This document shows, in pieces, positions 211-55,470 of a DNA stretch of 64,000 bases. The position numbers were made by a program, and so were the translations under genes. The notes beneath the pieces are model-generated. The model searched no databases. It was given only the letters and a program-made list of their open reading frames with translations, and was not told the DNA's origin. The stretch's first letter is position 1. The number at the start of each line of letters is the position of its first letter. Origin of the DNA: Apostichopus japonicus (lineage: Eukaryota; Echinodermata; Holothuroidea; Aspidochirotida; Stichopodidae); NCBI RefSeq assembly GCF_037975245.1, contig NC_092572.1, positions 7,765,501-7,829,500 of the forward strand, in the 5' to 3' direction.

Positions 211-280
211 CTCCAACATTCATGAATGACATTAGTAAGACCGCAACGGGAAGAATTTTCTGTTGCATCAAATCCATCAT
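211..280 (-). CDS. Signal-peptide exon of a NACHT receptor gene running off the left edge
   Basis: Reading leftwards from ATG at 280, this exon encodes 23 codons plus one base: two methionines, a short polar stretch, then a hydrophobic core (LPVAVLLMSF) ending in NVGG. It stops at a consensus donor (GGAG/GTAAGAC), so it leaves in phase 1, as Ig-receptor signal exons usually do. It matches exon 1 of the two complete NACHT receptor genes (24494-24560 and 55401-55470). The rest of this gene copy would lie to the left of base 1, so nothing can be said about whether it is intact. No in-frame ATG lies upstream before a stop, which supports this start. Confidence 0.7.
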
Positions 281-1189: not shown

Positions 1190-3156
1190 TGAATACGGAT
1201 ACCAAACCACTTTTGCAATTTGCTTTAAAACCAATACCATTGTGTTACATACGCAACGGGGAAAACAAAGATTTAAATTGTTGTGCAAAAACATTGTCAG
1301 GTAAGATAACATTCCCTTTAATCGACTCATCTAAAGTTGAGCTGTATCAAAAAACAAAAAAAAGTTTTTCGTTTCCAATGGTCAGCACAATAAAACCATC
1401 ATCGCCTAATTACATGTATAACTGTGACTCTAATGAAAAGATAATATTCCAGAGCATAACTTGCTCGTAAACTAACAACCAGCTATCAAATACATGTTCT
1501 ATTGATTTCATTTTCTAAAGGATCAGCTACAATGAACGATGCAAGATCCTCCCAGAAGCTGGCATTACCTTTCAACGCTCTTCGGGCACATTCCGGTCAT
1601 TTAATGTTACTTTGCATCTTCTTCAACGAACGTGTTTCCCCGATTCATTTTTCTTTGCCCAGGGAATTATTCAGTCACTTGCTACGTTAAAGAGGGGGAG
1701 AAGGAGCTGAAAGGGAGGGGGAGGGGATAAAAAAGGTTTTAATGTAAATACCATTGAATGATTATGTCAAGTATGTACTCCATAATGGGATAAGGTCTGA
1801 ATAACTTATTTTGGAGACCCTCGCGAAACTCGGATAAAGGGGCAAACTACATTCTTCATAAGAAAATACATGATACGAAAGGGGAGAAAGTCAAACCGAC
1901 GCCTGACCCTCCCCCACACCCTTTCCGAGCACCAACTTACACGATGAAGTATTTGTTCTAATGTTGTTTGACTGGTTAATTTATATTTTGCAGTACATTA
2001 TTTAATCTGTTACGTGCAGTCGTATTTGGGATCTTTAAGACAATCAATACTTCATACAAGGAAATATGAATATATATATATATTGATATATTTTGTATGA
2101 AATATAAGTTAAGGATTGCGTTTTTCCTTCGGGTTGAAAGGAACAACAACTGGAAATTATACTTGGATAACAAGTTTTTCAGGTGCTTAAACGAATACTT
2201 AAACGAGTACACATCCCCTCCACTAACGTATAATGGAACATTTGAGTGTCTGCGTTTCTTAAAGTTTCACTTTTCTTGTCATTGTATTACTGTTGAGTAC
2301 ACATCTTTTTGACTACGATAAAAAGCCCACAGCAGTACGTATATGAAAACACTGCTACTGGACCTCATATCCTAAACTTGTGATGTATACTAATACAAGG
2401 GTAAACGTTATTTCAAACTAACATATACACACAAAAATTGACGTGGATTAACAGAAATTGTCCCGTGCTTTGGTACAAGGAAGTTTTAAATTACATATAT
2501 TGGAGCACCACTATAAGCACCACTATAAGAACCTCACAGTAATTACTTTGTATCAAAATACCTTTACTAATTTCTATATATTCCAATATGTTATTATTTC
2601 TATATATTTCTATATATTTCCATATGACGTACGTACAATAAGACATAATTAGGTCATAATTAAGATCATGCGTTTGCTATTAAGTTGTCTAACTAAATAT
2701 ACTTATTTTTTGCTTTCGTCCTGCCTATGGTCTGTCTACCAGCGTTGTACCTGAACAATTTCTTCTCTGTTATTTGGACAGTGTTAGCGCTATGATCTAT
2801 GTCTTTTGACCGCAGCTATGACAAAGATTGAAAAACTCATGAAAAAGGAAACCTAATTCGTAACATTTATGAGGGATATATGAACAAATATTCTAAATTT
2901 ATTCGTGGGACCGAGCTCAATGAATATTAGTAGCTTTAATTTTATATAAAAGCTTGATCTGATGGAAAGGTATGTGAAGTCAGAGAATTGCGACTTTCAG
3001 TGCAACGGTTACGTTGTGATATATTATTCAAGAAATAACTTTGCTTCCTAATTACGGTAACCCATTTTGGTATTCCAAACAATGCTCATGTGACTACCTT
3101 TTAGGTTTCTTTGTGAATTGCCTAACATGTAAGTTTGCAGTTTTTCACTTCAACAG

Positions 3157-17000: not shown

Positions 17001-17629
17001 AAAATGACCTCTGCATAAACAAGATGTGCCGTGTGCTCTCTGCATTGCATCCACATTCGTAGTAGGGCATTAATGAAACATTCAATTGTGAAGTCTCCAG
17101 GATCGGTTGATTTCAAACAACTGTAGCAACGCTCACGAAGACTTCACAAACTCCGGTAGTTAAGACATTCGTTTTGAGTACATTAAATGACGCATTAAAG
17201 ACTGATTACATTTACATATCTTTTGGAAACAATTCATTTCCCCATGTTCCTTTCTTTGGGTTGAATTTTGGTACACTCATGGTAGATTGCGAAGTCGTCC
17301 CACATTGATATACTAAAACGTAGATAAGAGAGAAGTGGAATAAGTTAATACAATGAACGTAACGATTCTGCAAGAAAAAAGAACGTAAAGAAGGCCTGTT
17401 ATTAGTAGGTTATGAACAGGTCCACACATGAATACACTTAATCGTAAACCGAAAAATACTAAATGTAATGGAGAGTTAGTTTAGTACATATTTTGAAAGT
17501 TAGTAACAAACATTTCATGAAAATTGAAAAAAAGAACATTAAAATGAACCAACTTCCAACTAAATGTACACACAATTAAGTTTCTTTATCTGGTTCTTGT
17601 ATATTGTCCAAAAAATCGTATTCAGAATA
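14082..17629. other. Convergent spacer between kinase A and NACHT gene, module 1
   Basis: No coding exon can be supported. It holds one copy of a block that is duplicated in module 2 (about 14403-15460), a poly-C stretch near 16230-16248 and a GC-rich patch at 16595-16700 with GGGCCCCGCCGGGGC-type sequence. The GC-rich patch recurs at 47620-47700, so it predates the duplication. Both transcripts should end in this interval. Confidence 0.55.
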
Positions 17630-17755
17630 TCACTCACTTTTCATGTCCAATCCCGTCAAAGCTGATTCCACTTTCTGTTTGTCTTCTTCTTTTAATTCCT
17701 TCGGTACCGAACATTTTACGAACCTTCATAAGAGAATATAAAGAAATAAATATAT

Positions 17756-17786
<31 letters not shown>

Positions 17787-18050
17787 ACGAAACAAAAGTA
17801 ATAATTCATCACGATAACAAAAGATAACACTAATCACATTTCACAGATGATTATAACGAGGTATTATTAAACATTCTTACTGTATGATTTCTGGATATTT
17901 TCGAGTTGTAAGGCTGGTGATAATTGATACGAATTGGTTTTCGTTGATGTTCATTTCCAGAAATATCAGGATTTTTAATGAGGGCAGTGTTACGTCTTTT
18001 ATGAAGTCAATAGCACAATCTTCTCTAAGTGTCATTCGTCTCAGTCTTAC
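17630..18050 (-). CDS. Exons 8 and 9, C-terminus (NACHT receptor copy 1)
   Basis: Exon 18050-17881 (170 nt) encodes a leucine-rich helical stretch (VTLPSLKILIFLEMN, then SIITSLTTRKY) that may be a worn single leucine-rich repeat. Exon 17723-17630 adds FVKCSVPKELKEEDKQ and ends MKSE at a TGA. In module 2 the first part of the last exon is missing. No full LRR array follows, unlike typical vertebrate NLRs. Confidence 0.65.
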
Positions 18051-21000
18051 CTGTTGGAAGACAAGTAATTAAAAAGACGTTAACATTAAGGAACGTCATA
18101 TATGTGCACGTTGAATAACTCAAAGAACAACACAAATTCAACAATAACCATTTATCGAGGCATATCACATTAATGCGTATTTTTACAAGAAACATAAATG
18201 TAGTAAAACTAAAACAAATGACCAATCAAATTACGATACGGTTACGATATAAAGAACATCCATTAGAGTAATATGTTAAATGAATAAAATAATTACGATG
18301 GACAATCAGCCGTTTCTTAAAACAAGCTTAGGAATCATTTTTTGACAAGTTGAACATAAATTCAAAAATTAAATGAACCACATTTTGTTTTAAAATAAAT
18401 TTACAGCGTTACCACTACTTACATCGGAAGCATTGCAAGCATCGCAGAATTCTGTTAAGGCAACTCTGTGGTGTTTCCTGTCAAGATGCTGTATGTTAAT
18501 GTTCATATAGCCACCCAGTGTACCCCTTTTGTCGTACATGCTGTTTATAATTGCCTGCCTCTTCTCGAGATTACTCATTTCATAAATACAGTCGATCAAA
18601 TTGTTCCACATTTTCTGATCCTCCAAGAGAGATTTTACTGCTTTATCCAATCTAGAATGATTCATGCCGAACATAAACTGTAATAACCTAACCGTTGCTT
18701 CGTCATTACTCTTTTTTATAAATTCATCTATCCACGCCCACTCTTTATCCTTTTCTGGCACATACTGAGCAGCTAGAAATTCCTGAAAGAATTCATGATA
18801 AAACATGATTCCAGCAAAGGACGAAAAAGCCAATTCTTCTAATTGACTTCCTCCGCTTCCTACCTTCTTTGAATACTTGAGCAAACCTACGTCTAAGGCA
18901 AGTTGGGTATCTTTATCACCAAGTTTATCATTCCAATACTCGCGTTTACCCAATGAAAGGCTCATTTTGTTTTCAAATGCTATTTTACCAAGTCTAGCTT
19001 CCAGACTCTTAATATCTTCTTGAATGGACTGGTTATTAACTTTCTGCACGTATCGGGATTCCAAACAGGTAATCACTAACCTTATTATTGTTGTCAGTTT
19101 GTTAACATTCACTTCTTTATATTTCCCTGTTGGATCTAACATTCTGCATGTAATTATATGAACAATCATAATCAGCAGGAGGGGTGTTTCAGAAAAATTT
19201 TGAGAAATTTCGTTTAATTCCATACAATCAGTAACCTTGTTTGAAAGTATTTCAAAAGTATCATAGGCTTCCGGGTTCTGTCCGTCGTTTCGTGGAACAA
19301 TGTTATCTTTCTGCTCTGATTCTCCTTGCATTATCTCGTCATGAGCAGCGGGAATTAACATTTTTGTTGCATCATCCGTCACCTTGTCAGGTTTAATGTT
19401 ACTTTCATTTGCTTCATTTATGCCATCTTCTGTAAAAATGTCCTCGTCTTTTCTTTCTTCGTTTTGAAGTTTTTCCACATCAACAGTTTGGGTTTGCTCC
19501 GTTATGTCTTGTTTTCTCTCTCCCGAGGTTTGTTTATTTTCTTCGTTAACCTCATTTATGTTTTTACCATTCTTTCCCCTATTCATCGGATTTTCATACT
19601 TTACATTTTCGGCATTTTTATATCCTTCATCTGTCACCGGCTGGCTGACGGTATTTGTCGTCATCTTTGATTCGTGGATCAAGGTTAGTTGGGGTATTAC
19701 TTGTGATTTAAAGTAATATTTGCAGGTTTTATGAATATACTCATTGACTTGAGAATTACTGAAACCATTCAATTTTACCTTAGAATATGGAAGGGCAAAT
19801 GAAGCCTTCATATCATCAACTTCACGAGACGTTACCCAAACCTTGATCTTTTTAAACTTAACAGTGTTTATTTTATCATGGAGTAAATTTTCGACCGTCA
19901 GATTAGCATCATTTTCACCCTCCTCTTGAAGGAGATTGACACGTTCTTCTTTATCGTTAGTAGGATTCTCAGGAGATGTACTGGTACTAATCGTAGACAT
20001 CGATAGCTCATCAAGCCCATCCAAGAGTACTTGAAACTCAAAATTCAGAAATATTTCAACAATATCTTCCACCATCAAATCGTTTCCAACAGGCATCATT
20101 TTTTGGACAATTTCGGAAAGTATCATCGAGGGATCAACCTCTTTAAGGTGAATATATATTAGTATAGGTTCACTGGTTTGATTTTTTCTGCCAATTTTCG
20201 GAAGTTTCATTTTTGATGCCCAATCGCTAACCAAGTGTTGAGTGTAGGTTGTCTTCCCGTAACCTAAATCTGCTATGATGATCACCCGATTATTATCGTA
20301 GTTAAACTCCGGTGTAGACAGAATGTCGCTGTCGTGATGACTGACGTCACCGTTCTCGTTAGTGACGGTGCACTGGCATGTAGTGTAAAGGGCATGTATT
20401 GGTATTGGTTCACTCCATGGTAGTGGTTTGATGAAGCAAAATTTCTCGTAGTATTTCATTAGCCCTTCTACTAATGTATTTTTCCTCTCTAAAGAAAATA
20501 ATAAGCATATCAATGACTACAAAGATTGTACAACGTTGTGATTTTATTAAAAGGAATGGTTTCAATGGGCAAGAAATTTATATTTTGCATTAAAATTTGA
20601 GTATGACAGGCAGGGATGACATCAGCAATAAACATAAAACTGTTATGTTATGACCACTATATGTATGATACCTGCATTGATGATGCGCTATCTTTTGTTA
20701 AAAATAGAAAACCTCTTTCATTCATTATCATCGTGTAGCTATGAAATCTCCTTGTTGCAATAATTCAGCAGCATACTTGTTTTCTCCTATTCTAGTTTTA
20801 AAGATCGACTCGTATGTTGTTGTTTTTAGCTTTTTCACATATGTTACTGAATGTGTAAGCTATAAAGTTGTACCTCATAATGGAGACTTGTTTTTTATAA
20901 TACCCGTAATTTCTTAGGGCAGTCGCGTCAAGTCTTCTTGCATTGGAATAATAATGTTGAAGATGAACAATTATCTCATACCTTCAAGGGATTTTTTCTT

Positions 21001-24000
21001 CGGCTTCGGTTTTGGTTTTGGTTTCGTATTTGTGGTCTGTGTTTCCTGCTGTAAGAACAGATATGGAATTTATTCAAACAGATGGATAACAGGAACACAT
21101 TGTGATTAAAGACTATAAAGTAAAAGAGATATAATATCCTTCTTACCACGTATGGAACCCGAGTTGCGATCTGTGTATACGTACCTAAATAAACAAAAAT
21201 TAGAATATGATCGGTTCAATTATTGTGGCTTTGATATTTTAATGTTCGTTGTTAATATGCAAAAGAATTTAATGCAGCTTTGTAAATTGTATTATTCTTT
21301 ATATGATTATATAAGGGGATATTCAACTGTCTATACCGGCGGCTATCGCAGGAGAAGCAATGAACGGCGGTACAACACAAGCGATCTCCCAGGCGGTAGG
21401 TTGCGTGCATCCAACGATAGCGTTATATCTCGGTTCATTCATACATCAGACTCATTAAACATCAATTTTCATCTGAAAATTTTACACTTGTCTTTTGCCA
21501 ATATTTAAATGAAATATAGCCAACAATGTGTGCAAACGCTGTAAAGATGTTCTCTACTTTTATAATAGTTAACAGTCTCAAAACAAATTAGATGCAGAAG
21601 TAAAATAACATGAACAACAGAAATAGGCTATAGTGTATGTAGTACGGTGAACAACACTACAAAGTCAGCCTGGATATGTCGCAAGGTATACTATATATGC
21701 AGTTGTCATAACAACATGATATAATTTTGTATCAGGACAGGAGTAGAAGTGCACTAACAAGGTCACTATATATACACTCACTACACTCAATTGTATGAAC
21801 TGGCAGTGGCGGCAAAAGAAATAGCAAGTTTGGGGTTGGCTAGGAACAGTTGGGGGAGGGGGAGGCATTTGAAATAAAAAAAAAGATACCTGAATAAAGG
21901 GCAAATCAGGAGAAAATTTAATGGGCAAGAGCACACGTCCTACCCACCCGATCCACCATCCCACGCCTCATCCGTTACGATAATTTAAATTGATAAATAT
22001 TTGCGACTTATTTACAATGACTAGCTCAGCAAAGTTTCGAGTGAAAAACAAGACAAAACTGTAACTTGCTCTATGATTGCAACTGTACACAGTTACTGTC
22101 TGCAAGTACATGACCATCAGAAGCTGCAGCACTATTATTTAGTTCTTGTTCGCCCTTGTGGAGATTATGGAGAGCACAAAAATATGTATGAAAGTATGCT
22201 TGAAATATTCTAGCTTTCTTGAGGTCAATATTATCTGTTGTGACAACGACTCAAATCATTATTTTCTCCTATGCAGATAGTGTGCTGCATAAAAGTTTGC
22301 AGTTGCCAGAATACTTTTTGCTACATATTTGGGAGTTGAGACGATCATGGTTTTCTCTGTTGTTGGTATATTCGGATTATTGAACGAAATTAGATCATTT
22401 CAAAACACCATACTTATCCTTACCTCTTCTTCGATACAAAAAGCAAGCAAATAGGACTAATACCACGAGGACGATAACAATTCCAATAACGACAAAGGGC
22501 CAGGCGACTGGACCTTTAGGGCTACTCGTGGGTTGCATTGGAGGAGAGTCTTTGCAGGCTCCTGAAACGATATAATCAAACAACGAAGATTGTACATGTC
22601 AGGTCACGTCAGGAATTTCAATGAAGATATATCTCAATGTTTCGTGTTATCGGCCACAACTGCGATGTTATCATATACACGCTTTGAAGCTGAAGAATGA
22701 CCTCCTTCCCATACTGCTTTCTACGCTGTCGCAATTTCATTTATCATTGGCAATTCCCCTTTATACCTGATAGAAGAAAAGTCACAAATCCTGGTTCTTA
22801 CACTATTGATATAGGTTTGTTTCTCCAAAGACCTATAATTTCACTATTGCTAAGGGTATACGTTTTGCCCTAATTGTGGGTAAAACAAGGACGTGTGTTA
22901 CATTTGCTTAATTCCAAGGGGTTAACCAAATGTGTCCAAATTTACGCTTCCAAATACAAATAAGACATAACTATGTATATCACTTCGTTATGAATATTCT
23001 ACACTGTCCGTCTGGTATGTTCAAAATGTGTACGTTATTCAATTCAACTGTAAAAAACTGAGTCTTTACGAATATTACTTCTGTAAAATCAAGGAACACA
23101 TTATAAACAGTCACGGTACCTGTCTTTATCCTAACAGTGCTGGAGTAAGTATCAAGGAGAGAGAGTAATGGAAAGTCTGAAAAGGAAGCAATGCATCTGA
23201 AAGTAGCATCTGCTCCACAATCAGGTGTTGTGTATTCAATGGTTTTCTCAGTGTACCATCTGTCACCCATTTCTTTATGAGTTTGCTCTTCTTTGGTGAA
23301 GCTCACTCCAGACTGGTTAGTTACAATCCAGTCTACGTCCATCATTGGTCGAGAGCCATTCACATAGCAAGTCAATGATCCATAAGTGGTAACATTCAGT
23401 TGACAGCCAGTACAGGTAGAACCACAGGCATCAATCAGTGGGCACGGGGGATCGGGTCGACCTGTCAGGATAAATTGTTCACGATATTTACTCAGTGTTG
23501 TTGACTACTGTGAAAATTTGTATTTCAATTGATACAACATTATATTAATATCAATGGATTCAAAATGTTACAACTGCACCGCAAACTAAATAATAAATAA
23601 TAAATAATATAGAAAAGGGATGTGTTTATTACTGTAAATTAAAAGCGCCGTGTTTGATGTATCTTGTTCAAAGTTTTCAAAGTAAGCTGTCAACGTATAG
23701 CTGTTTTCATGTTGTAACTGGCTATTAATGATTCTAAGAGATCCATTGACGGTTAACTCAAATTCCCCTTTCTGGTATTCGCTGCCACCTGATATGCCAT
23801 CTACGAGTGATAACAAAGGAACGGTGCTCGTTGTTAATCCTTTGTACCAATACAAGTCGTAGTTGGAGCCTAAAACATGGCATGGAAGCTCAAACGACTT
23901 TCCCATTTCTGCAGAACACTTGGGCTGACACTGAACATTGCTTGCATCTGTTAAGAAAACATAATATTTCATATACTTTATTTACATATTAACGGAATGA

Positions 24001-24560
24001 GACTCGGTGTTTTTAAAACAAATAGTTGATATATGCTAATTCAATAGTATCTTATAGAATGCAATCGACAGTGAAGATTGATTAAACAATCGTTAATCTG
24101 TAACTTTTAAAACATGAATTTGTTCCGTTGACCGGTGAATATAGAGCACTTCTTTATTTATGCTTTTGTATATATTACTTTACACATATCATATTTTATT
24201 CAGACTATTTTCCGATTATGTCTTGAATAGCTGTTATCGTTTAAAAAACAAGCAATTGTGCAGTTTTTAGTAATATTGGAAATCACAAAGAGGCGATTGT
24301 TCAGACTGGGGTTTAAGTTTATATTCAGTAGCCTCTTTCCTTCCATCATTCTTCCCAAACAGTTCGGAAACATTGTTTTTTTTTTTCCTACTTTGAAATC
24401 CTCTTGACGCCACTGATCAGAGATCAATTGCCATGCAGTCATTACTTTGATATATATGGTAAGCATTAACAAATTAATTCTTATTTGTCTTACCTCCAAC
24501 ATATATAAATGACATTATTAGAACTAAGATCGCAACTGTCTGGTGTATCAAGTCCATCAT
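17630..24560 (-). CDS. Ig-Ig-TM-NACHT receptor, copy 1, intact
   Basis: Nine exons: 24560-24494, 23947-23633, 23461-23120, 22561-22424, 21184-21147, 21048-20982, 20488-18423, 18050-17881 and 17723-17630. All junctions are GT-AG and keep the frame, giving 1098 codons plus stop (3297 nt). Order in the protein: signal peptide (1-22), Ig-like domain (23-127), second Ig-like domain (128-241), transmembrane helix (about 262-284), basic linker with KPKPKPKPKKK (about 310-320), NACHT ATPase and winged-helix region (about 390-900), and a short C-terminus without clear leucine-rich repeats. The product should sit in the plasma membrane with Ig domains outside and NACHT in the cytosol. NACHT proteins usually act as nucleotide-driven oligomerisation switches in innate immunity; ligand and output are unknown. 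Most NLRs are cytosolic, so the Ig-TM front is unusual. Kinase A converges on it from the left. Confidence 0.8.
18423..20488 (-). CDS. Exon 7, NACHT ATPase (NACHT receptor copy 1)
   Basis: 2066 nt, one large exon of about 688 codons. Motifs in order (protein residues): Walker A ADLGYGKTT (about 395-403), Walker B LLDGLDEL (477-484), sensor-1-like WVTSRE (540-545), NGFSNSQVNEYI (563-574), ETPLLLIMI in the winged-helix region (756-764), and FYHEFFQEFLAAQY (885-898), a hallmark of NACHT proteins. A charged, glutamate- and asparagine-rich stretch of about 145 residues (593-737) interrupts the domain and looks disordered. It ends at SD before GTAAGT. The catalytic residues needed to bind and split ATP are present. 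Confidence 0.9.
20982..21184 (-). CDS. Exons 5 and 6, juxtamembrane linker (NACHT receptor copy 1)
   Basis: Two tiny exons, 21184-21147 (38 nt) and 21048-20982 (67 nt). The second encodes ETQTTNT followed by four KP pairs and KKKSLE. The matching exons of module 2 are 52044-52019 (26 nt) and 51916-51874 (43 nt) and lack the KP repeats, yet keep the frame. This is the fastest-changing part of the gene between the two copies. Confidence 0.65.
22424..22561 (-). CDS. Exon 4, stalk and transmembrane helix (NACHT receptor copy 1)
   Basis: 138 nt. A proline- and serine-rich stalk (SPPMQPTSSPKG) leads into a helix of about 22 residues (FVVIGIVIVLVVLVLFACF) followed by YRRR, a stop-transfer signal that puts the C-terminus in the cytosol. 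If the donor is not used, translation reads KDKYGVLK and then stops. That would give a short-tailed form. Confidence 0.8.
23120..23461 (-). CDS. Exon 3, second Ig domain (NACHT receptor copy 1)
   Basis: 342 nt, phase 1 to 1. It begins RPDPPCPLIDACG with a cysteine cluster (CGSTCTGC), then a classic Ig core: LTCYVNG, VDWIVTN and TFRCIASF. This domain keeps the Cys-Trp-Cys triad that the first domain lacks. The module-2 exon (54109-54450) is the same length. Confidence 0.75.
23633..23947 (-). CDS. Exon 2, V-like Ig domain (NACHT receptor copy 1)
   Basis: 315 nt, phase 1 to phase 1, one Ig domain per exon. The strand-B cysteine (ELPCHV) and strand-C tryptophan (DLYWYKG) are present. At the strand-F position, where Y-x-C is usual, the sequence is SYTLTAYF, so the canonical second cysteine is missing. 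Two extra cysteines lie at the start (VQCQPKC) and may provide another bond. The domain would be the most membrane-distal part of the receptor. Confidence 0.75.
24494..24560 (-). CDS. Exon 1, signal peptide (NACHT receptor copy 1)
   Basis: ATG at 24560 is followed at once by a second ATG. The peptide is 22 codons with a hydrophobic core (VAILVLIMSFIYVG) and leaves in phase 1 at GGAG/GTAAGAC. The same exon is found at 211-280 and 55401-55470. Confidence 0.75.
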
Positions 24561-31232: not shown

Positions 31233-34079
<2,847 letters not shown>

Positions 34080-35290
34080 ATTTACAAATTTCTGAATATA
34101 CTGAATATTTACTTTTGACTATTTACTTTTGAATACGGTAGGGAGAACGAAAATATCCTATCGTCAATTTACGAGACGTTAACCAACCCTTAAGCTTTTA
34201 ATATTGAACCATGTTTATTTTATTATCGAGTAAGTTTTTGACCGTCAGATTAACATCATATTCATTTCCCTTTTGGAGGAGATGGATATGTTCCTCTTTA
34301 TCGTTAGATGGATTTTCGTAAACATCGATAGTTCATAAAACCCATCCAGGAGTACTTGAAACTCATAATTCAGAAACATTTCGGCAATATCATTTACCAT
34401 CAAATCGATTTTAACAGGCATCATTGTCTTACAAGTTCGGAACTTATCTTCGAGTGATAAACCTTCCTAAATTAAGTATATAAATTTACTGATTATATTA
34501 TTTTGCCATCTTTCGGTGGTTTCATCTCTTTAAGCCAAACGCGGACCCAATGTTAAATGTACGATGTCTTCCCGTAACCTTAATTTGCTGTAATGAAGAC
34601 CCGATCTTTTATAGAAATTAGACTCCCGTGGAGACCATGTGAGTGTGGTACTGGCTCATCCTATGGAGCAACATTTCTCACAGTACGTTATCTATCTACT
34701 AAAAAAGAATGTTATTTTCTGAAGAAAAGTGTTAAAAATGTTAGTAACTTCTTGGTTTATACACATTATGGTGTATTAAAAGGACTGTTTCAATGGGTAT
34801 GGACTTTATATTTTGCATCTACATTTGACGATGACAGGTGGAGATGTCATCAGTACTGAACATAAAACTGTTTCGTCATGAACACTACAAGTACTATACA
34901 TACTTTTTTGAAGCAGTTGGGTAAAGTCTCTTGCTTCAGAATAGTAATGTGGAAGGAAAACATTTATACCGTACCTTCGAGAGATTTTACTTCGTGCTTT
35001 GGTTTTGGCCTTTTATTTGTGGTCTACATTTCCTGATATATCAGAACAAATATGTAATTTATTCAAATAAATGCATAAACAGGAACGCATTGTGTACAAA
35101 GACTACGCAGTAATATAGATATAATGTCCCTCTAACCATGTATGGGTTCGCAACGATGTGTGTGCTCGTATCTATATACGATAATAATATATAATACAAA
35201 ACTATGGTCGCTTCAACTTCTGTGCCGCTGTCATTATACAACTTTATTTCGTGGAGCTTTGTAAAAACATTGTTCTTTTCATATGATTAA
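34080..35290 (-). pseudogene. NACHT receptor fragment, dead third copy
   Basis: Minus-strand homology to the NACHT exon covers about 34740-34080, followed upstream by matches to the linker exon (about 35030-34965) and the small exon before it (about 35150). At the Walker A site the frame reads AN, stop, GYGKTS, and at Walker B LLDGFYELS replaces LLDGLDELS, so the second acidic residue is lost. There are further indels. The match ends at about 34080, so the C-terminal two thirds are missing. Intron patches resemble module 1 slightly more than module 2. A 1.25-kb piece (35295-36545) interrupts the homology, which resumes at 36545-36640. Confidence 0.8.
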
Positions 35291-37212: not shown

Positions 37213-37924
37213 ATGGCCGTATTGAGTAACATTCTGAACAGCGATGGTTTACCGGCAATACTAATAGGTAAGAATTTTATTTCTGAAGGTTACATACAAA
37301 CAAAATGCTATCGGTAAACAATTTGTGGCTACTAGCTTAAATAAAATAACAATAAATGAATAACAAATTACCTCTTTCTAGTTTCACAATATGGCAACTT
37401 AACATCTGATTGGCATTGTCTGTTTTGCCGAGAGAATTTGCAGTAACATGTTAAGAAACACACAACATTAACCGTATAGTTAAATAATTCAGGGTGAAGT
37501 CACTTTATTTCAGAATGTAAAAATGTTAAACGAAATGTGGTGAATTATACAGTTAGATAATCAATGAGGTTTTCTGTTTACTTATGTTTACATTTGGTAT
37601 ATCATAATCACAGAATATCAACTCGTGATATTTCTGCAGGATTCTCTGTTCCGAACATTGTAATTTGTTTTGATACTTTATATAAATTTGTGTAGGAAAA
37701 TGTAATTTAACAAACTAGCATGTCTCGATGAGAGTGGCAAAATCTACAGATGAATGACAACCTTTCTTTCTGGCTTTGAAGAACTGCAAATGAGGCTCGC
37801 TTTCAAAACCCAATTGGTTAAGGCGACTACGTGTAGAGTTGGAGACTGAAGATTTTGCACTGTTCTGTAATTTCTAACTCATTACCGTTTCAACTATATT
37901 TATTCATATTATTGTTCTTTTCAG

Positions 37925-38266
37925 TGTTTTTGAGCATTTTAGGTTCCCCAAAGAACAAGACTAATGCCGAGGCGATTACAGATTCTAAAGTGATGGCAAA
38001 ACTTTACGAAAGTATATGTCTAAAATGTCCTGTCTTGTTTTATGAGAATACAGGGTTAATATGGAGACTTGGATTTAACCAATCGTATTTATTTAGAGGT
38101 GAAGCAAGAACTTACGACAACAGGGATTTTCCTTTGACGATAAACGAGTGTGATTCGATGCACTACGCACTGGGATTACTCAACGTCGCAATTGGTATCA
38201 ATGATGTAAGGTATACGTGTTGGAGAAAGGATCAACTGATATCTTCATTTGTGGTTCATGTCCAAG
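37925..38266 (+). CDS. First Ig exon of kinase A, copy 2
   Basis: 342 nt, phase 1 to 1, joined to a 55-nt start exon (37213-37267; MAVLSN...) whose last base completes a valine. The joined N-terminus is a plausible signal peptide (LPAILIVFLSILGS). The Ig core is complete: ICLKCPV, GLIWRLG and VRYTCWRK. Several N-x-S/T sites (NQS, NKT) suit an extracellular domain. This exon is open here and ruined in module 1. Confidence 0.7.
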
Positions 38267-38602
38267 GTAAATTTCAAACATAATTTTAGTGGTTGCTAAA
38301 CAAATATAGTTTTTTTCAACAATAAATTTCAAATAAGCAAATCATTGATATTTATCAGGGTTTATTTTAATCATGATGATGACTATTTCCTTGTGCGGTA
38401 GAACTTTGAATATACATGTATAAAATTGGGCAACAATTGAGCTATATGTTAAGACATTATAACATTCTAGCTAATTCCTTACATAAATTAAAGCACTTGG
38501 TTCCTTTCCCATCAAGGACATATCTGTTCATGATAACAATAGAGTTCTAAGGGTGCCCCTCATAATTGGCACATTCCATGTTTTCCTTGTTTTTAATTAT
38601 AG

Positions 38603-38955
38603 TAACACCAACAATTGAAATTGTTGGGGAAAACGTGGTTGTGAATACGGATACTAGCAGGACACTTTCGGCTATTGAGGGTTCGGATGTTGAGATACAA
38701 TGTGCTATTTTCAACACAATTCTACCGTTAAACGTGAAGTGGTTACAGAACGGAACTTTTAACAGAACTGACACTTTTACTGACGTCACGAAACTAGAGA
38801 TGAAAAATTTGTCATCAAATTTTAAGTTCGAAATGAGAGTCAATATTCAAAATTTCACATGTAAAGTAAATGGCAGATATGTAGTCAACCAAGAGAGTGA
38901 AATTTTAATTCACATCCAAAATCCTAAGTCAATTACACCGGACGACATACATCAG
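38603..38955 (+). CDS. Second Ig exon of kinase A, copy 2
   Basis: The exon encodes an Ig domain with VEIQCAIF, VKWLQNG and NFTCKVNG. It is open throughout but is 353 nt where the phases of its neighbours require 351. Compared with module 1, two bases (AT) are added in CGACATACATCAG, so splicing to the TM exon would run into a stop. The module-1 exon is also 353 nt but has its extra two bases elsewhere, in an A run. Confidence 0.7.
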
Positions 38956-41900
38956 GTAACAATTTCGTTTATTTGTGACTTCCGTATAATTATAGTTTGG
39001 ACTCGCAACGAGAAACCTCAGTGAAACATGAAGCTCGGTACAGTTTTCTTCACTGTCTCAGACAAGCAAATGCTCTTTTTGATTGTTCGTTCCCTAAATC
39101 AGTGGTAATTTGAATCACAAAGAGAATACTAATGTCAATTGTAAACCGGCCTTTATTATTGAAAAGAACTATGTAATTAATGAAGTGCCCTTAACACAAG
39201 CCAAGAAAACTTATAGAAATCTTTTTCATTACTCATTTAATCTAAACAGATACTGATGAAGGCAAAATGGGCGTATATTATTTTATCGTACCAATCCTCT
39301 TCACTATATCGACCTTGACGAGTTTACTGATGTTTTATAAAGTTCAAAGTACGTAAAAATATGCTATGTTGGTATTGTTATACGAGTAATCTATTCTTAC
39401 TGAATTAGGAAAACAAACTACAAACTTTGAAACGTCACTGAAAGCGTATTAATATAATGGGGCAAACGAAGCTTCAGAAGTGATTTGCCACAAAATCCAC
39501 AAAATTAAGACTATATTTGTATATTTCATGTGGCCAGTATAATACTTGGAAGATCATCACATTGCTGGAGTGTCTATTCCCTGTCGCCCTTCTAGCAATT
39601 GGTTATCTTCCAAGGAGCTATGAGGTACGTTGTGAGAATGTAAGTAACTTAGCATTGAAGCCCACATGACTGAGATTAATTTTAAAATAAAAACAATGTT
39701 TCAAGAGCAACCCCCTTCTGTGAATTTTGTGTATCCGAAAATAAGTCCGATTTCGACGTGAATTCACCTCATTTTTATAAGCATTTCCAAAATGAATTAA
39801 AACTCAGTTTCTGAATAGGAAATAAAAAACCCTGTTGGAATTAAACATGTCAATAGTAAAGGGAAAAAAAGAGAGAAAGTGAAAGGATATTTTAGTTCTG
39901 CAAAATAAAAATAAAACAAACATAAAAGAAAAAGCAAACACAAAGATAAAACTTTAGCACAATTTAAAAATCAGGAGCATAACGTGATATCCTTTCCATG
40001 TCTGTGCTGTGACAGACTCACCATGCATGGTCTGTGTGATTATATTTCACACACTGTATTATTTTTTAGGGCTTAGATCGCAGAGGATGGGAACTACAGA
40101 GAGAACAAAGTAAGTCACTTCAACTTCCTTATCTGAGCAGTAAACACATATTCAAAGTTAACATGAAGTTTCCAAATGAAGTTATACTCAGTTATACTGA
40201 GCTCGTATAAGTTTTACAATTTGGTATTTGTGTCCAAATGTATGCTTCTTTCTTCACAATAACAGTTACATATTTTGTCTTAATATTATCCCATTTCTAA
40301 GAATCATATTTTCTCCGTATGAGGTATCCGCATGCTTAAGTTTTCATAAAGACCCTTTGTAATAGTCAATATTTAGTTAATTCAATATACCGCCAATTAT
40401 CTAATGTTTCTAATTCAAGCGTGACTACGACAACATTCGAAACAATCAACATACCTGTTAGTGAAGAAGTACTATATGAATCTCCAGACGATATGGCTGG
40501 TGGTAAGTTCTGTTTCCCTTGTAAAACCTGCTGATTTATCAATTCCGTGCAATCAGAGTTGTGGGGAAGGTGGATTATAATTATAATTCATTGTAAGAAA
40601 AATAAATTAATTACTAAGAAAACTATTGTAATAAAGAATGTTCGTTAAATATGTGTTGTAACTTAAAGTGTACTAGACATATCGAGGGTTGGAGAGGGGT
40701 CCAGATTCTTCAATATTAACACTCTGCAAGATATATGGGTTCAAGATAAGTCACTGTTAAGAGACGTTTATCTACAAGTTCCATGGTCATTTACCGTTAT
40801 ATGACTTCGGTAGGATATATAGGTGTACTACTGGCGGCCTTTAAACAAGTATCGAGTACTATGCAATGCTAGTAAATTCAGTCCTTGCACAGAATCATCA
40901 AAGAGACTGTTGGATTTCTTCCTTATAAATGTTAAACAAGTAAATGTTAAACTAACTCTGGAGATGAAACTGAATTTATCTTACAACCCCTTCCCTTCCT
41001 CTATATGGGTTTTTCCGAATGCAATTGGACATGTTTCTGGTTGCACAGTACACAAGGTACTGTGGGTTTTGAATACCTTCCCTAAACAAATAAAATGACA
41101 ATATAAGAAACGAAAACAACCAATAGTTGGACAGCTCAAATAAGCAGTGTTTAATCCTCATGTCACTGCTTCGACTACAGTTCTATCCATAATATGCTTT
41201 ACTCTTTTCCATGTTCTCTTTAATCTTCACAGAGTTCTACTTCTATGGAGACAACACTGTGTTAAATCGAGGTGACATTATACTGACAAGCTCTATACCT
41301 TGCACAGGACGCATGAAGAGATGGATAGCATCAACGAAAGGAAAAGATAGATCCCTCATAGTAGCAAATACTTTGTGTGGTATGTTAATGTGTGGTGCAT
41401 AGCTTCCTGATTAATTCACTATACTCTAACTACTGTTCAATTAAATATATATAATGCCTGCATTAACCATTAGACTAGGTATGAATAGAGCAATGGCATC
41501 TACGAAAGGAAAAGACAGATCCCCCTTATAGTTGCAAATAGGTTGTGTGTTATGTTAATGTTTGTTGCATAGCTTCCTGGTTAATTCAGTATACTCTAAC
41601 AACTGTTTAAGTACAAATTCTGCCTGCACTCAGCATCGGGTTTGAATATGAGAAGAAACCGGTTGTTTACAGTGCTCCTCCAGTGTATCAGAAACAGCAG
41701 CTGGTGCTATATCAATAATGAGATGGAATCTAGATGATACGTCCAAATTACTGTATGATAATTTTAGCAGCGGTGAATGAAGGGTTTATATTTTACTGAA
41801 CTGAAATGGAATCTCAGAGATATATATTGTGTTATTGCAGACAGCTCAACAAACGAAGACTGGCTTCAAATCAGATTGCTGGCTGAACATCTCAGGCATA

Positions 41901-48657: not shown

Positions 48658-49373
48658 TTACTCACTTTTCATGTCCAATCCCTTCAAAGCTGATTCCACT
48701 GTCTGTTTGGATTTTCCTTTTAAGAAAGTATATATAAAGAAACTAAAGTCATAATTCATCACGACAAAAAAGATAACACTAATCACATTTCACAGATGAT
48801 TTTAACGGGATATTATCAAATATTCTTACTGTAGGATTCCTGGATATTTTCGAGTTGTAAGGCTGGTGATGATTGATACGAATTGGTCTTCGTTGACGTT
48901 CATTTCCAGAAAAATCAGGAATTTTAATGAGGGTAGTGTTACGTCTTTAATGAAGTCAATAGCACACTCTCCTCTAAGTGTCATTCGTCTCGGTTTTACC
49001 TGTTGGAAGAAAAGTAATTATAAAGACGTTAACATTAAGGAATGTCATATATATCCATGTTGAATAACCCAAACAATAACACAAATTCAACAATAACCAT
49101 TTATCGAGGCATATCACATTAATGCGTATTTTTACAAGAAACATAAATGTAGTAAAGCTAACACAAATGACCAATCAAATTACGATACGGTTACGATATA
49201 AAGAACTTACATTTAGAGTAATATGTTAAATGAATAAAATAATTACGATGGGCAATCAGCCGTTTCTTAAAACGAGCTTAGGAATAATTTTTTGACAAGT
49301 TGAACATAAGATTCAAAAATTAAATGAACCACATTTTGTTTTAAAATAAATTTACAGCGTTACCACTACTTAC

Positions 49374-51439
49374 ATCGGAGGCATTGCAAGCATCGCAGAA
49401 TTCTGTTAAGGCATATCTGTGGTGTTTCTTGTCAAGATGCTGTATGTTAATGTTCATATAGCCACCCAGTGTACCCCCTTTGTCGTACATGCTGTTTATA
49501 ATTGCCTGCCTCTTCTCGAGATTACTCATTTCATAAATACAGTCGATCAAATTGTTCCACATTTTCTGTTCCTTCAAGAGTGATTTTACTGCTTTATCCA
49601 ATCTAGAATGATTCATGCCGAACATAAACTGCAATAATCTGATCGTTGCATCGTCAGTACTGTTTTTTATAAATTCATCTATCCACGCCCACTCTTTATC
49701 ACTTTCTGGCGCATACTGAGCAGCTAGAAATTCCTGAAAGAATTCATGATAAAACATGATTCCAGCATAGGACGAAAAAGCCAGTTCTTCTAATTGACTT
49801 CCTCCGCTTCCTACTTTCTTTGAATACTTGAGCAAACCTACGGCTAAGGCAAGTTGAGTATCTTTTTTACCAAGTTTATCGTTCCAATACCCGCGTTTAC
49901 CCAGTGAAAGGCTCATTTTATTTTCAAATGCTATTTTACCAAGTCTAGCTTCAAGACTCTTAATATCTTCCTGAATGGATTGGTTTTTAACTTTCTGCAC
50001 GTATCGGGATTCCAAACAGGTAATCACTAATCTTATTATTGTTGTCAGTTTGTTAACATTCACTTCTTTATATTTCCCTGTTGGATCTAACATTCTGCAT
50101 GTAATTATATGAACAATCATAATCAGCAGAAGGGGTGTTTCAGAAAAATTCTGAGAAATTTCGTTTAATTCCATACATTCAGTGACCTTCTTTGAAAGTA
50201 TTTCTAAAGTGTCATAAGCTTCCGGGTTCTGCCCGTCGTTTCGTGGAACAGTGTTATCTTTCTGCTCTGATTCTCCTTGCTTTATCTTGTGATGAGCTGC
50301 GGGAATTAACTTTTTTGTTACATCATCCGACACCTCGTCAGCTTTAGTGTTACTTTCATTTGCTTCACTATTGCCATCTTCTGTAAAAATGTCCTCGTCT
50401 TCTCTTTCTTCGTTTTGAAGTTTTTCCACATCAACAAATTGGCATTGCTCCGTTATGTCTTGTTCTTTCTCTCCCGAGATTTGTTTACTTTCTTCGTTAG
50501 AATCATTTATGTTTTCATCAATCTTTTCCCTATTCATCGGATTTTCATACTTTACATTTTCGGCATTTTTACATCCTCCATCTGTCACCGGCCGGCTGAC
50601 GGTATTTGTCGTCATCTTTGATTCGGGGATCAAGGTTAGTTGGGGTATTGCTTGTGATTTTAAGTAATATTTGCAGGTTTTATAAATATACTCATTGACT
50701 TGAGAATTCCTGAAACCATTCAATTTAACCTTTAAATATGGTAGGGCAAATGAAGCTTGCATGTCATCAACTTCACGAGACGTTATCCAAACCTTGATCT
50801 TATTAAACTTAACAGTGTTTATTTTATTATCGAGTAAATTTCCGACCGTCAGATTAGCATCATTTTCACCCTCCTCTTGAAGGAGATCGACACGTTCTTC
50901 TTTATCGTTAGTAGGATTCTCAGGAGATGTATTGGCACTAATCGTTGACATCGATAGCTCATCAAGCCCATCTAAGAGTACTTGAAACTCAAAATTCATA
51001 AATATTTCAACAATATCGTCTAAGGTCAAGTTGATTCCAACAGGCATCATATTTTTGACAAGTTCGGAAAGTATCATGGAGGGATCAACCTCTTTAAGGT
51101 GAATATATATTAGTATAGTTTTCCTGGTTTTATTCTTTTTGTCAGTTTTCGTTGGTTTCATCTTTGATACCCAATCGCTCACCACGTACTGAGTGTAGGT
51201 TGTCTTCCCGTAACCTAAATCTGCTATAATGAAGACCCGATTATTATCGAAATTAAACTCCGGTGTAGACAGAAAGTCGCTATCTTGATGACTGACGACA
51301 CCGTTGCCGTTAGTAACAGTGCACTGACATGTAGTGTAAAGGGCATGTATCGGTATTGGTTCACCCCATGGTAGCGGCTTGATGAAGCAAAATTTCTCGT
51401 AGTATCTCATTAGCCCCTCCATTAAAGTATTTCTCTTCT
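49374..51439 (-). CDS. NACHT ATPase exon (copy 2)
   Basis: 2066 nt, identical in length to module 1 and open. It keeps Walker A (ADLGYGKTT), Walker B (LLDGLDELS), WITSRE, NGFRNSQVNEYI, ETPLLL and FYHEFFQEFLAAQY. Many of the differences from module 1 fall in the acidic linker and near the N-terminus. The ATPase itself seems functional in sequence even though the upstream Ig exon is frameshifted. Confidence 0.85.
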
Positions 51440-53278
51440 CTAAAGAAAACAGTAAAAATATCAATGACTGCCAAGATTGTAAAACGTTATGACATGATGG
51501 AAAGGAATGGTTTTAAAGAGCAAGATATTTATATTTTGAATTAAAACGCTATATGTATGATATATGTATTGATGAATGTAATTCATTTCTTACATATAGA
51601 AATTACCTTCATTTATTTTCGTGTATCTATGAAATTTCCTTTTTGCAATAATACAGCAGCAAACTGGTCTTTCTCCTTTTCCAGTTTTAAAGATCGACTA
51701 GGATGTTTTTGTTTTTAGCTTATTCACACATGTTACTGAATGTGTACACATTACTTAAGTTGTACCTCATAATGGAGACTTGTGTTTTACTATATCCGTA
51801 AGTTTTTACACCAGTCGCGAAAAATCTTCTTGCTTTGGAATAATAATGTTGAAGATGAAAAATTATATCGTACCTTCGAGAGATTTTTTGTTTGGTTTTT
51901 GTTTGGTCTGCATTTCCTGATATAAGAACAGATATGAAATATATTGAAACAAATTGATAAATGGGACCACATTGTGGAAAAGAATATGAAGGTATAAAAC
52001 TATAACGTCCTTCTTACCGTGTTTTGATCCGAAGTTGTCGTATCTAAATCAACAAGAACAAAAATAATAAAATAATGGTCGGCTCAATTTTTTGTGGTTT
52101 TGATATATCAATGTCCGTCATTAATATACTTAATTATTAAATGCACCTTTGTTAAGTGCGTTGTTTCATATATGATTACATAAAGGGTTTATCAACGGTC
52201 TACCATGCTGCCAACACAGGATAATACATGAACGATGGTATCACGCATGTGATGCACGAGTCTGTAGGTCGTGTGAATCCAGCAATAGCGTTGCACCTTC
52301 GTTCATTCATACAACACACTCCATAAACATACATTTTCAATACAAATATTGCCATTTTTGTAAACTTTAAAGGAAAAATAACCAACAATGTGTCCAAACG
52401 GTACAAAGAAGTTCTCTACATTTATGATAGTTAACAGCCTCAAATCAAATTAGATGCAGAGGTAAAATAACAAGAATAACAGAAATAGGCTATAGTGTAT
52501 GTAGTGCGCTGAACAACACCACGTTATTCAATGAAGTCAGCCTGGATCTGACCCAAGGTGTACTATACATGTAGTTGCCATCACAGCATGATATAATGCT
52601 GTATCAGGACAGGAGTACAGTGCACTAACAAGGTCACAATATCTACGTTCTGAATACACTAAACTGTTTGAACTGGTAGTGGCGGCACGAGAAATCCAAA
52701 GAAAGTGTGGCAAGTTTGGGGATGGACAGTTGGGGGGGGGATATGAAATTAAAAAAGGGTACCTGAATAAAGAGCCAATCACGAGAACATTTAGGGGCTG
52801 GGGCACACGTCTTATACCTACCCAATCCCCCATCCCACGCTTCATCCGTTACGATAATTAAAATTATGAATATTTGCGATTTACAATGACTAGCTGAGCA
52901 ATGTGTCAAGAAGAAAAAGGAGAACAATCTTTAACTTTCTTTATCATTACAATTGTTACATTTACTACCTGCGAGTGCATGACCCTAAGAAGCTACAGCT
53001 CTATTAGATAGTTCTTGTTCGCCCTTGTACTGTAGCGCAAAGCTACGTATGAAAGTATGCTAGACATATTCTACTATTCATGAGATAAATATCATCTGTT
53101 GTAACACCAACTAACATCGTTCATTTCTTCATTGCATAAATTGTGTTGCATGAAAGTTTGCCAGAATATTACCTGTTACATATTTGGGAGTTGCAGCGAT
53201 AATGGTTCCCTATGTTCGTGGTATGGTCGGATTATTTAACGTTACTAGATCAATTCAAAACACCATACTTATCCTTAC

Positions 53279-53419
53279 CTCGTCTGCTGCACAAACGGCA
53301 AGCAATGAGAATGGCGCATATTACAAAAAAGAAGATTATAATTCCAATAACGACGATGAGCCATGCACTCCCTTTAGGGCTACCCGTGGGTTCCACTGAA
53401 GGAGGCTCTTTGCAAGCTT
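53279..53419 (-). CDS. Stalk and transmembrane exon (NACHT receptor copy 2)
   Basis: 141 nt, one codon longer than in module 1. After EACKEPPSVEPTGSPKGS comes a helix rich in I and F, then CRLCSRRG. Reading past the donor gives KDKYGVLN and a stop, nearly the same short tail as in module 1 (KDKYGVLK). The helix has changed far more than the stalk. Confidence 0.7.
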
Positions 53420-54108
53420 CTGAAATGACATAATTAAGACAACGAAGATTGTACACGTCAGGTTACACAATCTTGCAAGTATAAGGGTTACGGGAGAGGA
53501 ATTAAATAAAGACATATCTGAGAGCTACGCCTTTCCTGTGTTATTGGCCACAATTGCGTTGTTATCATAAACACGCTTTCAAGACCTACTACTTTGTACG
53601 CTGTCGAAATTACAATAACCCAAGGTTCTATAGTTATAGAATAATTTGCTATTTGCAAAGTAGTTAATTTATAGGTTTGAATATCCAAAGAAAAGACCTA
53701 TAATTTTAGTTTTGCTTACGGTATACGTTTTGCTCTAATTGTGGATATATAGTAATACAAAAACGTGGGTTGTATTTTATTACTGGTACAGAAGTCTTCC
53801 TTATCTGTTCCAGTTTATAGCCACTAAATACCATTAAGACATAACTATGCATAAAGCTATGCATTATGTTCATATCCTTTCGTTATGAATGTTCTACAAT
53901 GTCCGTCTGGTATGTTCCAAATGTGTTCGTAATTCAGTTACACTGTACAAAAATAAATCTTAATGAAGTTTTGTAATATACATATCACTTACGTAAACTC
54001 AACGGACAAATTATAAACTGCCAAAGATAAGCATGGGAAATGGTTCAATAAACAGCAATACATTACTAATACCATCACGAATTTGCCAGTCAGTATATAC
54101 CACCATAC

Positions 54109-54450
54109 CTGTATTAATCCTAACAGTGCTGGAGTAAGTATCAAGAAGAGAAGCAAAAGAAAAGTCTGACAAGGAAGCGATGCATCTGAAAATAGCATCT
54201 GCTCCACAATCCGGTGTTGTGTATTCAATGGTTTTCTCAGTGTACCATCTATCATCCATTTCTTTATGAGTTTGCTCTTCTTTAGTGAAGCTCATTCCAA
54301 ACTGGTTAGTCACCACCCAGTCTACGTCCATGATTGGTAGAGAGCCATTCACATAGCATGTCAATGATCCAGAAGTGGTAACGTTCAGTTGACATCCAGT
54401 AAAGGTCGAACCACATGCATCAATCAGTGGGCACGGAGGATCGGGTCGAC
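54109..54450 (-). CDS. Second Ig exon (NACHT receptor copy 2)
   Basis: 342 nt and open. LTCYVNG, VDWVVTN and IFRCIASL mark the Ig core. The cysteine cluster of module 1 (GSTCTGC) is GSTFTGC here, losing one cysteine. Confidence 0.7.
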
Positions 54451-55400
54451 CTGTCAGGACAAAATGTTAACGATACTTACTCAGTGTTGTTGACTACTGA
54501 AAAGTTGCTTTTCAATTGATACACCAATATATATATATGACTGGATTCGAAATGTTACAACTGCACCGCTAACTAAGTATTAATTTAGAAAAGGTTATGT
54601 TTATTACTGTAAATCAAGCGCCGTGTTTGAGGTATATTGTTCAAAGTTGTCAAAGTAAGCTGTCAGAGTATAGCTGCCTTCGTGTTTTAACTGGCTTTTA
54701 TTGATTCTAAGAGATCCATTGATGGTTAACTCAAATTCCCCTTTCTGGTATTCGCTGCCACCTGATATGCCATCTACGAGTGATAACAGAGGAGTGGTGC
54801 TCGCTGTTAATCCTGTGTACCAATATAAGTCGTAGTTGGAGCCTAAAACATGGCATGGAAGCTCTAACGACTTTCCCAATTCTGCAAAACACTCGGGCTG
54901 ACACTGAACACTGCTTGCGTCTGTCAAGAAAACATAATATTTGTATTTACCTGTATTTACATATAAACGGATTGAGCTGATAGTTGATATATAGAAGTAG
55001 TTGAAGTAGTTGATGAAGTAGTTGAAATATGTTGACTAGATAGTATCCTATAGAATGCAAAAGACAGTGAAGATTAATTAAACAAACGTTAATCGTTTAA
55101 AACATGGACTTTTTGCGTTTAGCGGTTAATTTGGAAGACGTTTGTTTTCATATTTTGGCATATATCAATGTGAAAATCACATATATCATTCTGACACCTT
55201 CTAGGAGGGGTTGTTCAGACTGGTGATTAATTTTATATTCAGTAGCCTGTTGCCCTTCATTTTGTTCTACTTAAAGTTCGGAAAAAAAATTGGGCCCCTC
55301 TTTGAAATCCTGTGCACGCCACTGATTATAGATCATTCAGCTGCCGTCCTCACTTTGAGATAAATCGTAATTATTACAAACGTAATTTTTAATGTCTTAC

Positions 55401-55470
55401 CTCCAACATTCATGAATGACATTAGTAAGACCGCAACGGGAAGAATTTTCTGTTGCATCAAATCCATCAT
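55401..55470 (-). CDS. Exon 1, signal peptide (NACHT receptor copy 2)
   Basis: Begins ATGATG at 55470. The peptide is identical to that at 211-280 (MMDLMQQKILPVAVLLMSF) and leaves in phase 1 at GTAAGAC. Confidence 0.7.

Follow-up and report, generated by a model that had tools for sequence, protein, structure and literature searches.

NLR proteins are usually described as cytosolic sensors with leucine-rich repeats (LRRs). For the sea cucumber Apostichopus japonicus, the available text of a 2021 PLoS Pathog report describes AjNLRC4 (MN607598) as a membrane receptor with an immunoglobulin-like (Ig-like) and an Ig domain outside and a NACHT domain inside, without LRR or CARD; according to the same text, its Ig part binds microbes, and the protein dimerises and promotes phagocytosis (PMC8699970). 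Binding of caspase-1 by this Ig part, with cleavage of MLKL and lytic death of the cell as its consequences, was reported in 2025 (PMC11932488, available text). The subject here is gene A, located on the minus strand (24560–17629) of a 64,000-nucleotide stretch of the A. japonicus genome (the window; assembly GCF_037975245.1, contig NC_092572.1, positions 7,765,501 to 7,829,500, here C12). By its gene model, a signal peptide, Ig domains, a transmembrane (TM) helix and a NACHT ATPase follow each other in one frame, in the order characteristic of the AjNLRC4 type. This architecture is already known in A. japonicus, and gene A is a different locus from AjNLRC4. We put the probability at roughly three in four that gene A encodes a type I membrane immune receptor with ligand-binding Igs and NACHT signalling, one of a large germline family with a recombined outer Ig domain (Ig1).

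AjNLRC4 and gene A come from the same species, share the order of Ig, TM and NACHT, and have neither LRR nor CARD. They differ in their loci (C16 against C12), in the length of the extracellular part (482 residues in the available description of AjNLRC4, about 260 in gene A) and in the NACHT exon, which in AjNLRC4, as judged by eye, lacks a long charged insert. Two TM helices are claimed for AjNLRC4 in the text available, whereas the comparable stretch of gene A (ETPLLL) lies under the TM threshold. A second protein of the species, AjNLR-new (PIK48001.1; JBC 2026), comprises Ig, TM and NACHT in 1197 residues according to the accessible part of its report (PMC13133943); compared by description only, it resembles gene A in combining these parts in one protein of similar size, but differs in the reported topology.

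Outside this species, 6 of 53 NLRs of Chiridota heheva carry 'other domains, including V-set', and V-set is described as not found among the NLRs of sea urchins; V-set and NACHT are thus combined in one holothurian protein, as in gene A, with TM helices unmentioned in the available text (PMC8913654). The combination in both species suggests that it is probably old in holothurians. TM-bearing NLRs are also known in sea anemones and resemble gene A in the N-terminal position of their TM helices, but they have three to five of these together with NACHT and at least one LRR, and the accessible text mentions no Ig (PMC5094078). NLR/CARD-type proteins are among the expanded families of A. japonicus in the available part of a further report (PMC13228809). 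In the open-access literature, with few subscription papers included, neither a count of Ig-linked NACHT genes nor any swapping of Ig exons between them was found reported for A. japonicus. As far as these searches go, the 13-copy cluster, the genome-wide Ig linkage, the Ig1 mosaic and the primer discrepancy presented below are new.

Exon model and domains of gene A

Rebuilt from the sequence, gene A consists of nine exons encoding 1098 residues plus a stop, with no internal stop codon; all eight introns are of the GT..AG type, and the exons start in phases 0,1,1,1,1,0,1,0,2. The nine phase-matched exons and the unbroken 1098-codon frame claimed in the preliminary description were thus recovered, and on this model gene A is an intact gene. 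Exon 1 (24494..24560) holds the start codon and signal peptide, exon 2 (23633..23947) the V-set domain Ig1 (residues 33-122; Pfam E 4.1e-7, above the cut-off) and exon 3 (23120..23461) the C-type domain Ig2. In PDB, the V–C1 part of RAGE was matched (E 2.5e-4) by a segment running from the end of Ig1 through most of Ig2. Exon 4 (22424..22561) encodes a stalk and the TM helix with RRR at its end, and a TM exon was present in all seven cluster copies fetched (12 other copies exist). It is followed by a short linker, predicted to be cytosolic, in exon 5 (21147..21184) and by a linker rich in lysine and proline in exon 6 (20982..21048).

Exon 7 (18423..20488) contains the NACHT domain (residues 391-577; E 4.4e-8, above the Pfam cut-off), in which GYGKT, LLDGLDEL, TSRE and FFQEFLAAQY were located, then a charged stretch of 177 residues (37 D/E, 20 K/R), and then a possible HD2 part (NLRC4_HD2, E 0.012, under the cut-off). 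A PDB search with a profile of the NACHT exon gave a single match at chance level (E 0.27), and a search of NCBIfam gave none. The signal peptide, the two Ig exons, the TM helix and the NACHT motifs that had been described earlier are therefore all present, Ig2 being weaker than Ig1. Gene A possesses the Walker A and Walker B motifs of NLR/NACHT STAND ATPases; its N-terminus is a V-set domain in place of a death-fold effector, and no C-terminal LRRs were matched in exons 1-9, so that it falls outside the bona fide NLRs as defined by LRRs. Judging from these domains, its mode of action is most likely that of an NLR joined to an Ig receptor.

Hydropathy exceeds the threshold in the signal peptide (residues 1-27) and in the TM helix (residues 255-289, peak 3.56); ETPLLL, tried as a second TM helix, was rejected with a peak of 1.53. 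The net charge is +3 in the 25 residues before the helix and +11 in the 60 residues after it. These values bear on an inverted arrangement, in which NACHT would be extracellular and Ig intracellular. This topology is claimed for AjNLR-new; according to the text available, its NACHT fragment shows surface binding and two TM helices are predicted (PMC13133943). For gene A such an arrangement is very unlikely: the first of its hydrophobic stretches, at residue 1, is a signal peptide, and a single TM helix is succeeded by RRR and the positively charged, lysine-rich linker. The N-glycosylation sequons, four before the helix and seven beyond it, are a weak sign of topology, since more of them lie beyond the helix than before it.

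The conserved C-terminal segment in exon 8 (17881..18050) appears LRR-like by eye only, and gave Blast matches in all eight other copies compared. Exon 9 (17629..17723), which carries the stop and the motif GTGAGT, was matched in seven of the eight, copy B being partial. In 8 of 8 aligned copies GTGAGT abuts a stop codon in frame, TGA or TAA as judged by eye in the alignment, so that a further splice and an additional 3' exon are possible; the same receptor could then have a transcript running past exon 9 into more exons, perhaps repeats, and the absence of LRRs would be wrong. Despite this motif and the look of exon 8, such an extension is quite unlikely, as the in-frame stop stands directly after the GTGAGT region in the same eight copies. 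Furthermore, exons 8-9 matched no LRR model in Pfam (E up to 10, with filters dropping most weak matches) and, as an eight-copy profile, no LRR in PDB; the whole protein matched no Pfam model of an LRR or death-fold domain (E up to 1), and no LRR was detected in two minus-strand frames downstream of gene A, further downstream frames being outside the scan. An LRR remnant recognisable by models in exon 8 was accordingly rejected, and the Pfam searches agree with the earlier claim that an LRR array is absent.

Ig–NACHT linkage and the C12 cluster

The assembly was searched with the NACHT, Ig1 and Ig2 of gene A, with two ectodomain exons of AjNLRC4 and with the Pfam NACHT model. All genome-wide counts are among the matches listed, i.e. 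the best candidates; some places are therefore not covered, and chance will account for a few links. A NACHT place was considered linked if an Ig match lay on the same strand within 12 kb upstream, and shifted positions (200 draws) served as control. The count used 110 of 124 gene-A NACHT matches (second pieces and stop-rich fragments being left out), 149 of 150 Ig2 matches and the other lists whole. Merging resulted in at least 181 NACHT places, 91 of which were linked upstream by the gene A Ig queries, in comparison with 6 downstream, 0 on the opposite strand and a mean of 8.9 (maximum 16) for shifted positions. The AjNLRC4 exons alone linked 61 upstream, with 0 downstream and 0 opposite (shifted mean 2.1, maximum 6), and with all four Ig queries 107 of the 181 were linked. 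For the Pfam-NACHT places alone, the gene A Ig queries linked 40 of 106. None of the 35 listed NACHT places on C12 beyond 25.7 Mb was linked by any of the four queries, as against 107 of 146 elsewhere; on these matches, that tract near the chromosome end is a second, different NLR-type cluster. The linked places are exon matches in order, not gene models, and since stops interrupt the majority of AjNLRC4 exon matches on C7, they need not all be working genes. Dense Ig exon matches were also seen at C16:5.1-6.1 Mb, C15:11.2-11.7 Mb and C9:24.4-24.6 Mb, where none of the 181 listed NACHT places lies; these are possibly large Ig-only families.

A TM exon was sought as an exon of phase 1-1 with hydropathy of at least 2.5 and two basic residues after the helix, a strict rule fixed after a looser first pass. 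It was found in the sense direction at 12 of 16 loci and in the antisense direction at none (one of the 16 stretches being partly covered), the passing loci being 7/7 cluster copies and 5/8 distant loci, without the AjNLRC4 locus.

These counts bear on whether the Ig-TM exons and the NACHT exon of gene A might be two neighbouring genes whose joined frame is a coincidence. Four introns of 98 to 1239 bases separate Ig2 from NACHT, and gene A is a genomic model, both of which leave room for such a division. It is nevertheless highly improbable, given that the phases agree over eight introns, that the 107 linked places have Ig in the same order and on the same strand, compared with 0-6 in the downstream and opposite-strand controls, and that the published AjNLRC4 of A. 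japonicus shows this order too, as far as its available description goes. A chance fusion of Ig and NACHT was rejected on the same three grounds.

The window is a segment of a tandem array, its first 8 kb being 94-97% identical to 55-64 kb. The whole cluster comprises 13 copies on a single strand at C12:7.55-8.14 Mb (about 0.6 Mb), with 77-100% identity in the NACHT (271 residues) over the 13 copies and, for the first 271 residues of exon 7, 77-86% between gene A and the 12 others. All 13 loci repeat the same-strand order Ig1, Ig2, NACHT, within 12 kb in 12 of them, which makes the architecture more than chance. There are 13 Ig1 matches, and 12 whole and one split Ig2 matches. The Walker A and B motifs (ADLGYGKT, LLDGLDEL) are kept in 14 of 14 loci, and at least two of the 13 cluster frames are damaged or short, one carrying a stop and one being short.

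The Ig1 domains of the cluster fall into class I (six genes, including A and B), class II (four) and class III (three), with identities of 38-47% between class I and classes II/III and of 54-61% between II and III. Pairwise identities are 78-95% for Ig2 and 73-95% for NACHT (64% for one pair of partial, damaged frames). In Ig1 the related locus at 13.23 Mb, sharing 36-46% with the cluster, is about as distant as the classes are from one another; in Ig2 it shares only 34-38% and in NACHT 42-47%. The genes at 7.628 and 7.729 Mb illustrate the mosaic: their NACHT domains are 95% identical (synonymous divergence, dS, 0.019), Ig2 84% and Ig1 38% (dS about 2). In their DNA, a 3.5-kb NACHT block including introns is 93.7% identical, the part following Ig2, in which the TM exon lies, 74% and the exon 8-9 region 85%, and Ig1 is without any DNA match. 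Clade status of the Ig1 classes is rejected in the NACHT tree (log-likelihood difference 503, approximately unbiased test p 7e-6) and, weakly, in the Ig2 tree (p 0.03); copy G7944, with a broken frame, was left out of both trees and of the pooled Ig2 count. This conflict is explained by recombination or gene conversion between copies, in which either end may have moved. Gene A appears to belong to a very large family in which the outermost Ig has been shuffled between copies. Within classes, a crude count of nonsynonymous against synonymous differences (pN/pS) gave 0.38-0.59 for Ig1, 0.32-0.72 for Ig2 and 0.51-0.58 for NACHT, the NACHT frames of G7754 and G7944 being partial. Positive selection on the whole of Ig1 within classes was rejected on these values, at the level of the whole domain and not of sites.

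The closest neighbour of gene A in the window is its tandem paralogue gene B (48830..55470, minus strand), whose exons 3-8 are open over 928 residues without a stop. Exons 2, 3, 7 and 8 of the two are 91-93% identical, seven of the eight introns 74-87% and intron 7 96%; exons 1, 4, 5 and 6 are conserved no better than introns (exon 1 is identical at 49 of 67 aligned bases). Exon 2 of gene B is two bases shorter, which puts its exons 2 and 3 out of frame, and the front part of its exon 9 does not align to gene A. Together with the cluster copies that carry a stop or a short frame, and with a ratio of nonsynonymous to synonymous substitution (dN/dS) of 0.75 between A and B in Ig1, these defects would fit a gene A that is itself silent or on the way to decay and has stayed intact among broken relatives by chance. 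That is unlikely, since its nine exons and all splice sites are intact and dN/dS is 0.26 in Ig2 and 0.48 in NACHT.

Exon 1 of a third copy lies at 211..280 (minus strand), its body being left of the window with the NACHT at C12:7753943. A decayed NACHT remnant of the same family was found at 34072..35145 (minus strand) in three pieces of 74-81% DNA identity, one with three stops. On the plus strand, 37837-38280 and 38566-39021 are two open frames, the first Ig-like by eye and the second matching Ig_3 below the cut-off (E 1.5e-4); perhaps they represent another Ig gene opposite to the NACHT genes. No single open frame spans the copy of the second one near 8.5-9.0 kb. About 220 bases of simple repeat (32054-32273) match themselves directly and as reverse complement. 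Outside genes A and B, 10 of 44 stop-to-stop frames of the window were scanned against Pfam, and scans of the window for tRNAs and Rfam families gave no matches.

The AjNLRC4 locus and its published primers

AjNLRC4 was located at C16:4.497-4.503 Mb, where the published primers EX-F and EX-R (1 mismatch in 25 each) and qF and qR (0 mismatches) match at 4.497-4.499 Mb. A NACHT exon follows the primer sites (E 3.7e-18) with a hydrophobic exon in between, and what may be a signal-peptide exon can also be read there. Another Ig-like open frame (2350-3060 of the fetched stretch) holds the published quantitative PCR primers; with this extra frame, AjNLRC4 may exceed gene A in Ig units. The NACHT and Ig exons of AjNLRC4 are outside the matches listed for the gene A NACHT, Ig1 and Ig2 queries, and places matched by Ig queries from both genes (e.g. 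C12:24.776 and 25.163 Mb) provide an indirect link between the two.

Each of the printed AjNLRC4-IN primers, intended for the NACHT fragment, matches the assembly exactly and only once, one at C14:1474164 and the other at C14:1477150, in convergent orientation with roughly 3 kb between them. Close upstream of the C14:1474164 site, a gene which we take to be p62/sequestosome-like encodes a ZZ zinc finger (E 5.7e-12). In the 8.5 kb covered at the AjNLRC4 locus, neither these primers (best 10-11 mismatches of 25) nor the printed small interfering RNA (4 mismatches of 19) found a match. An error in the table is possible, and the assembly is taken as from another animal. With the primers placed on the C14 gene, the NACHT–actin step is given little weight here and needs rechecking; the mismatch bears on the published mechanism of AjNLRC4.

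A probable surface receptor family in A. japonicus

The preliminary description had proposed a surface receptor with Ig outside and NACHT inside. This proposal agrees with the features of a type I membrane protein that the sequence shows and with the publications on AjNLRC4 from the same species; its implied novelty does not stand, as Ig-TM-NACHT has been in print from A. japonicus since 2021. Several observations weigh against the receptor reading adopted here. Gene A is known here from genomic sequence alone, and its Ig2 is under the Pfam cut-offs (best C1-set, E 0.006). The two ectodomain exons of AjNLRC4 have no Pfam Ig match at E 0.01, and the primers for its published NACHT fragment map to another gene. 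The TM-exon test fails at 4 of 16 loci, including AjNLRC4, where the helix is visible under looser terms only. Ig1 pN/pS is not clearly above that of NACHT, with no sign of positive selection in the crude count, and the topology of AjNLR-new is reported to be the opposite in the available text (PMC13133943).

On the reading as a type I receptor, the two extracellular Igs of gene A would bind a surface ligand, microbial or otherwise, with the outer V-set Ig1 as the variable part, and the one TM helix would anchor the protein. Clustering of the ectodomains may then draw the NACHT ATPases close to each other in the cytosol, where they would assemble in a nucleotide-dependent manner and produce the signal, by analogy with AjNLRC4 phagocytosis or lytic death. 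Control of a NACHT switch by the Ig domains is a reasonable inference. For AjNLRC4, other authors have reported surface location, microbe binding and dimerisation. What is observed here, in gene A and its relatives, is the exon structure, the domains, the signals of a one-TM topology, the cluster and the mosaicism; the ligand, NACHT assembly and output of gene A are presumed. Across the germline family, Ig1 exons would have been recombined relative to a conserved Ig2-TM-NACHT chassis.

A wider reading, which we hold tentatively and at somewhat less than even odds, is that NLR-type genes of A. japonicus, outside the one cluster near a chromosome end, are mostly surface Ig receptors, and that V-set exons recombined over a homogenised Ig2-TM-NACHT chassis constitute a germline, Ig-based diversified repertoire with a NACHT signalling end. 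With about 100 of the listed NACHT places linked to Ig, the NLRs of this species may sense mainly through Ig domains at the cell surface. The 13-copy cluster offers a compact system for asking whether the swap of one Ig exon changes recognition by a NACHT receptor, and the mosaic Ig1 exons suggest a route to varying specificity without lymphocytes.

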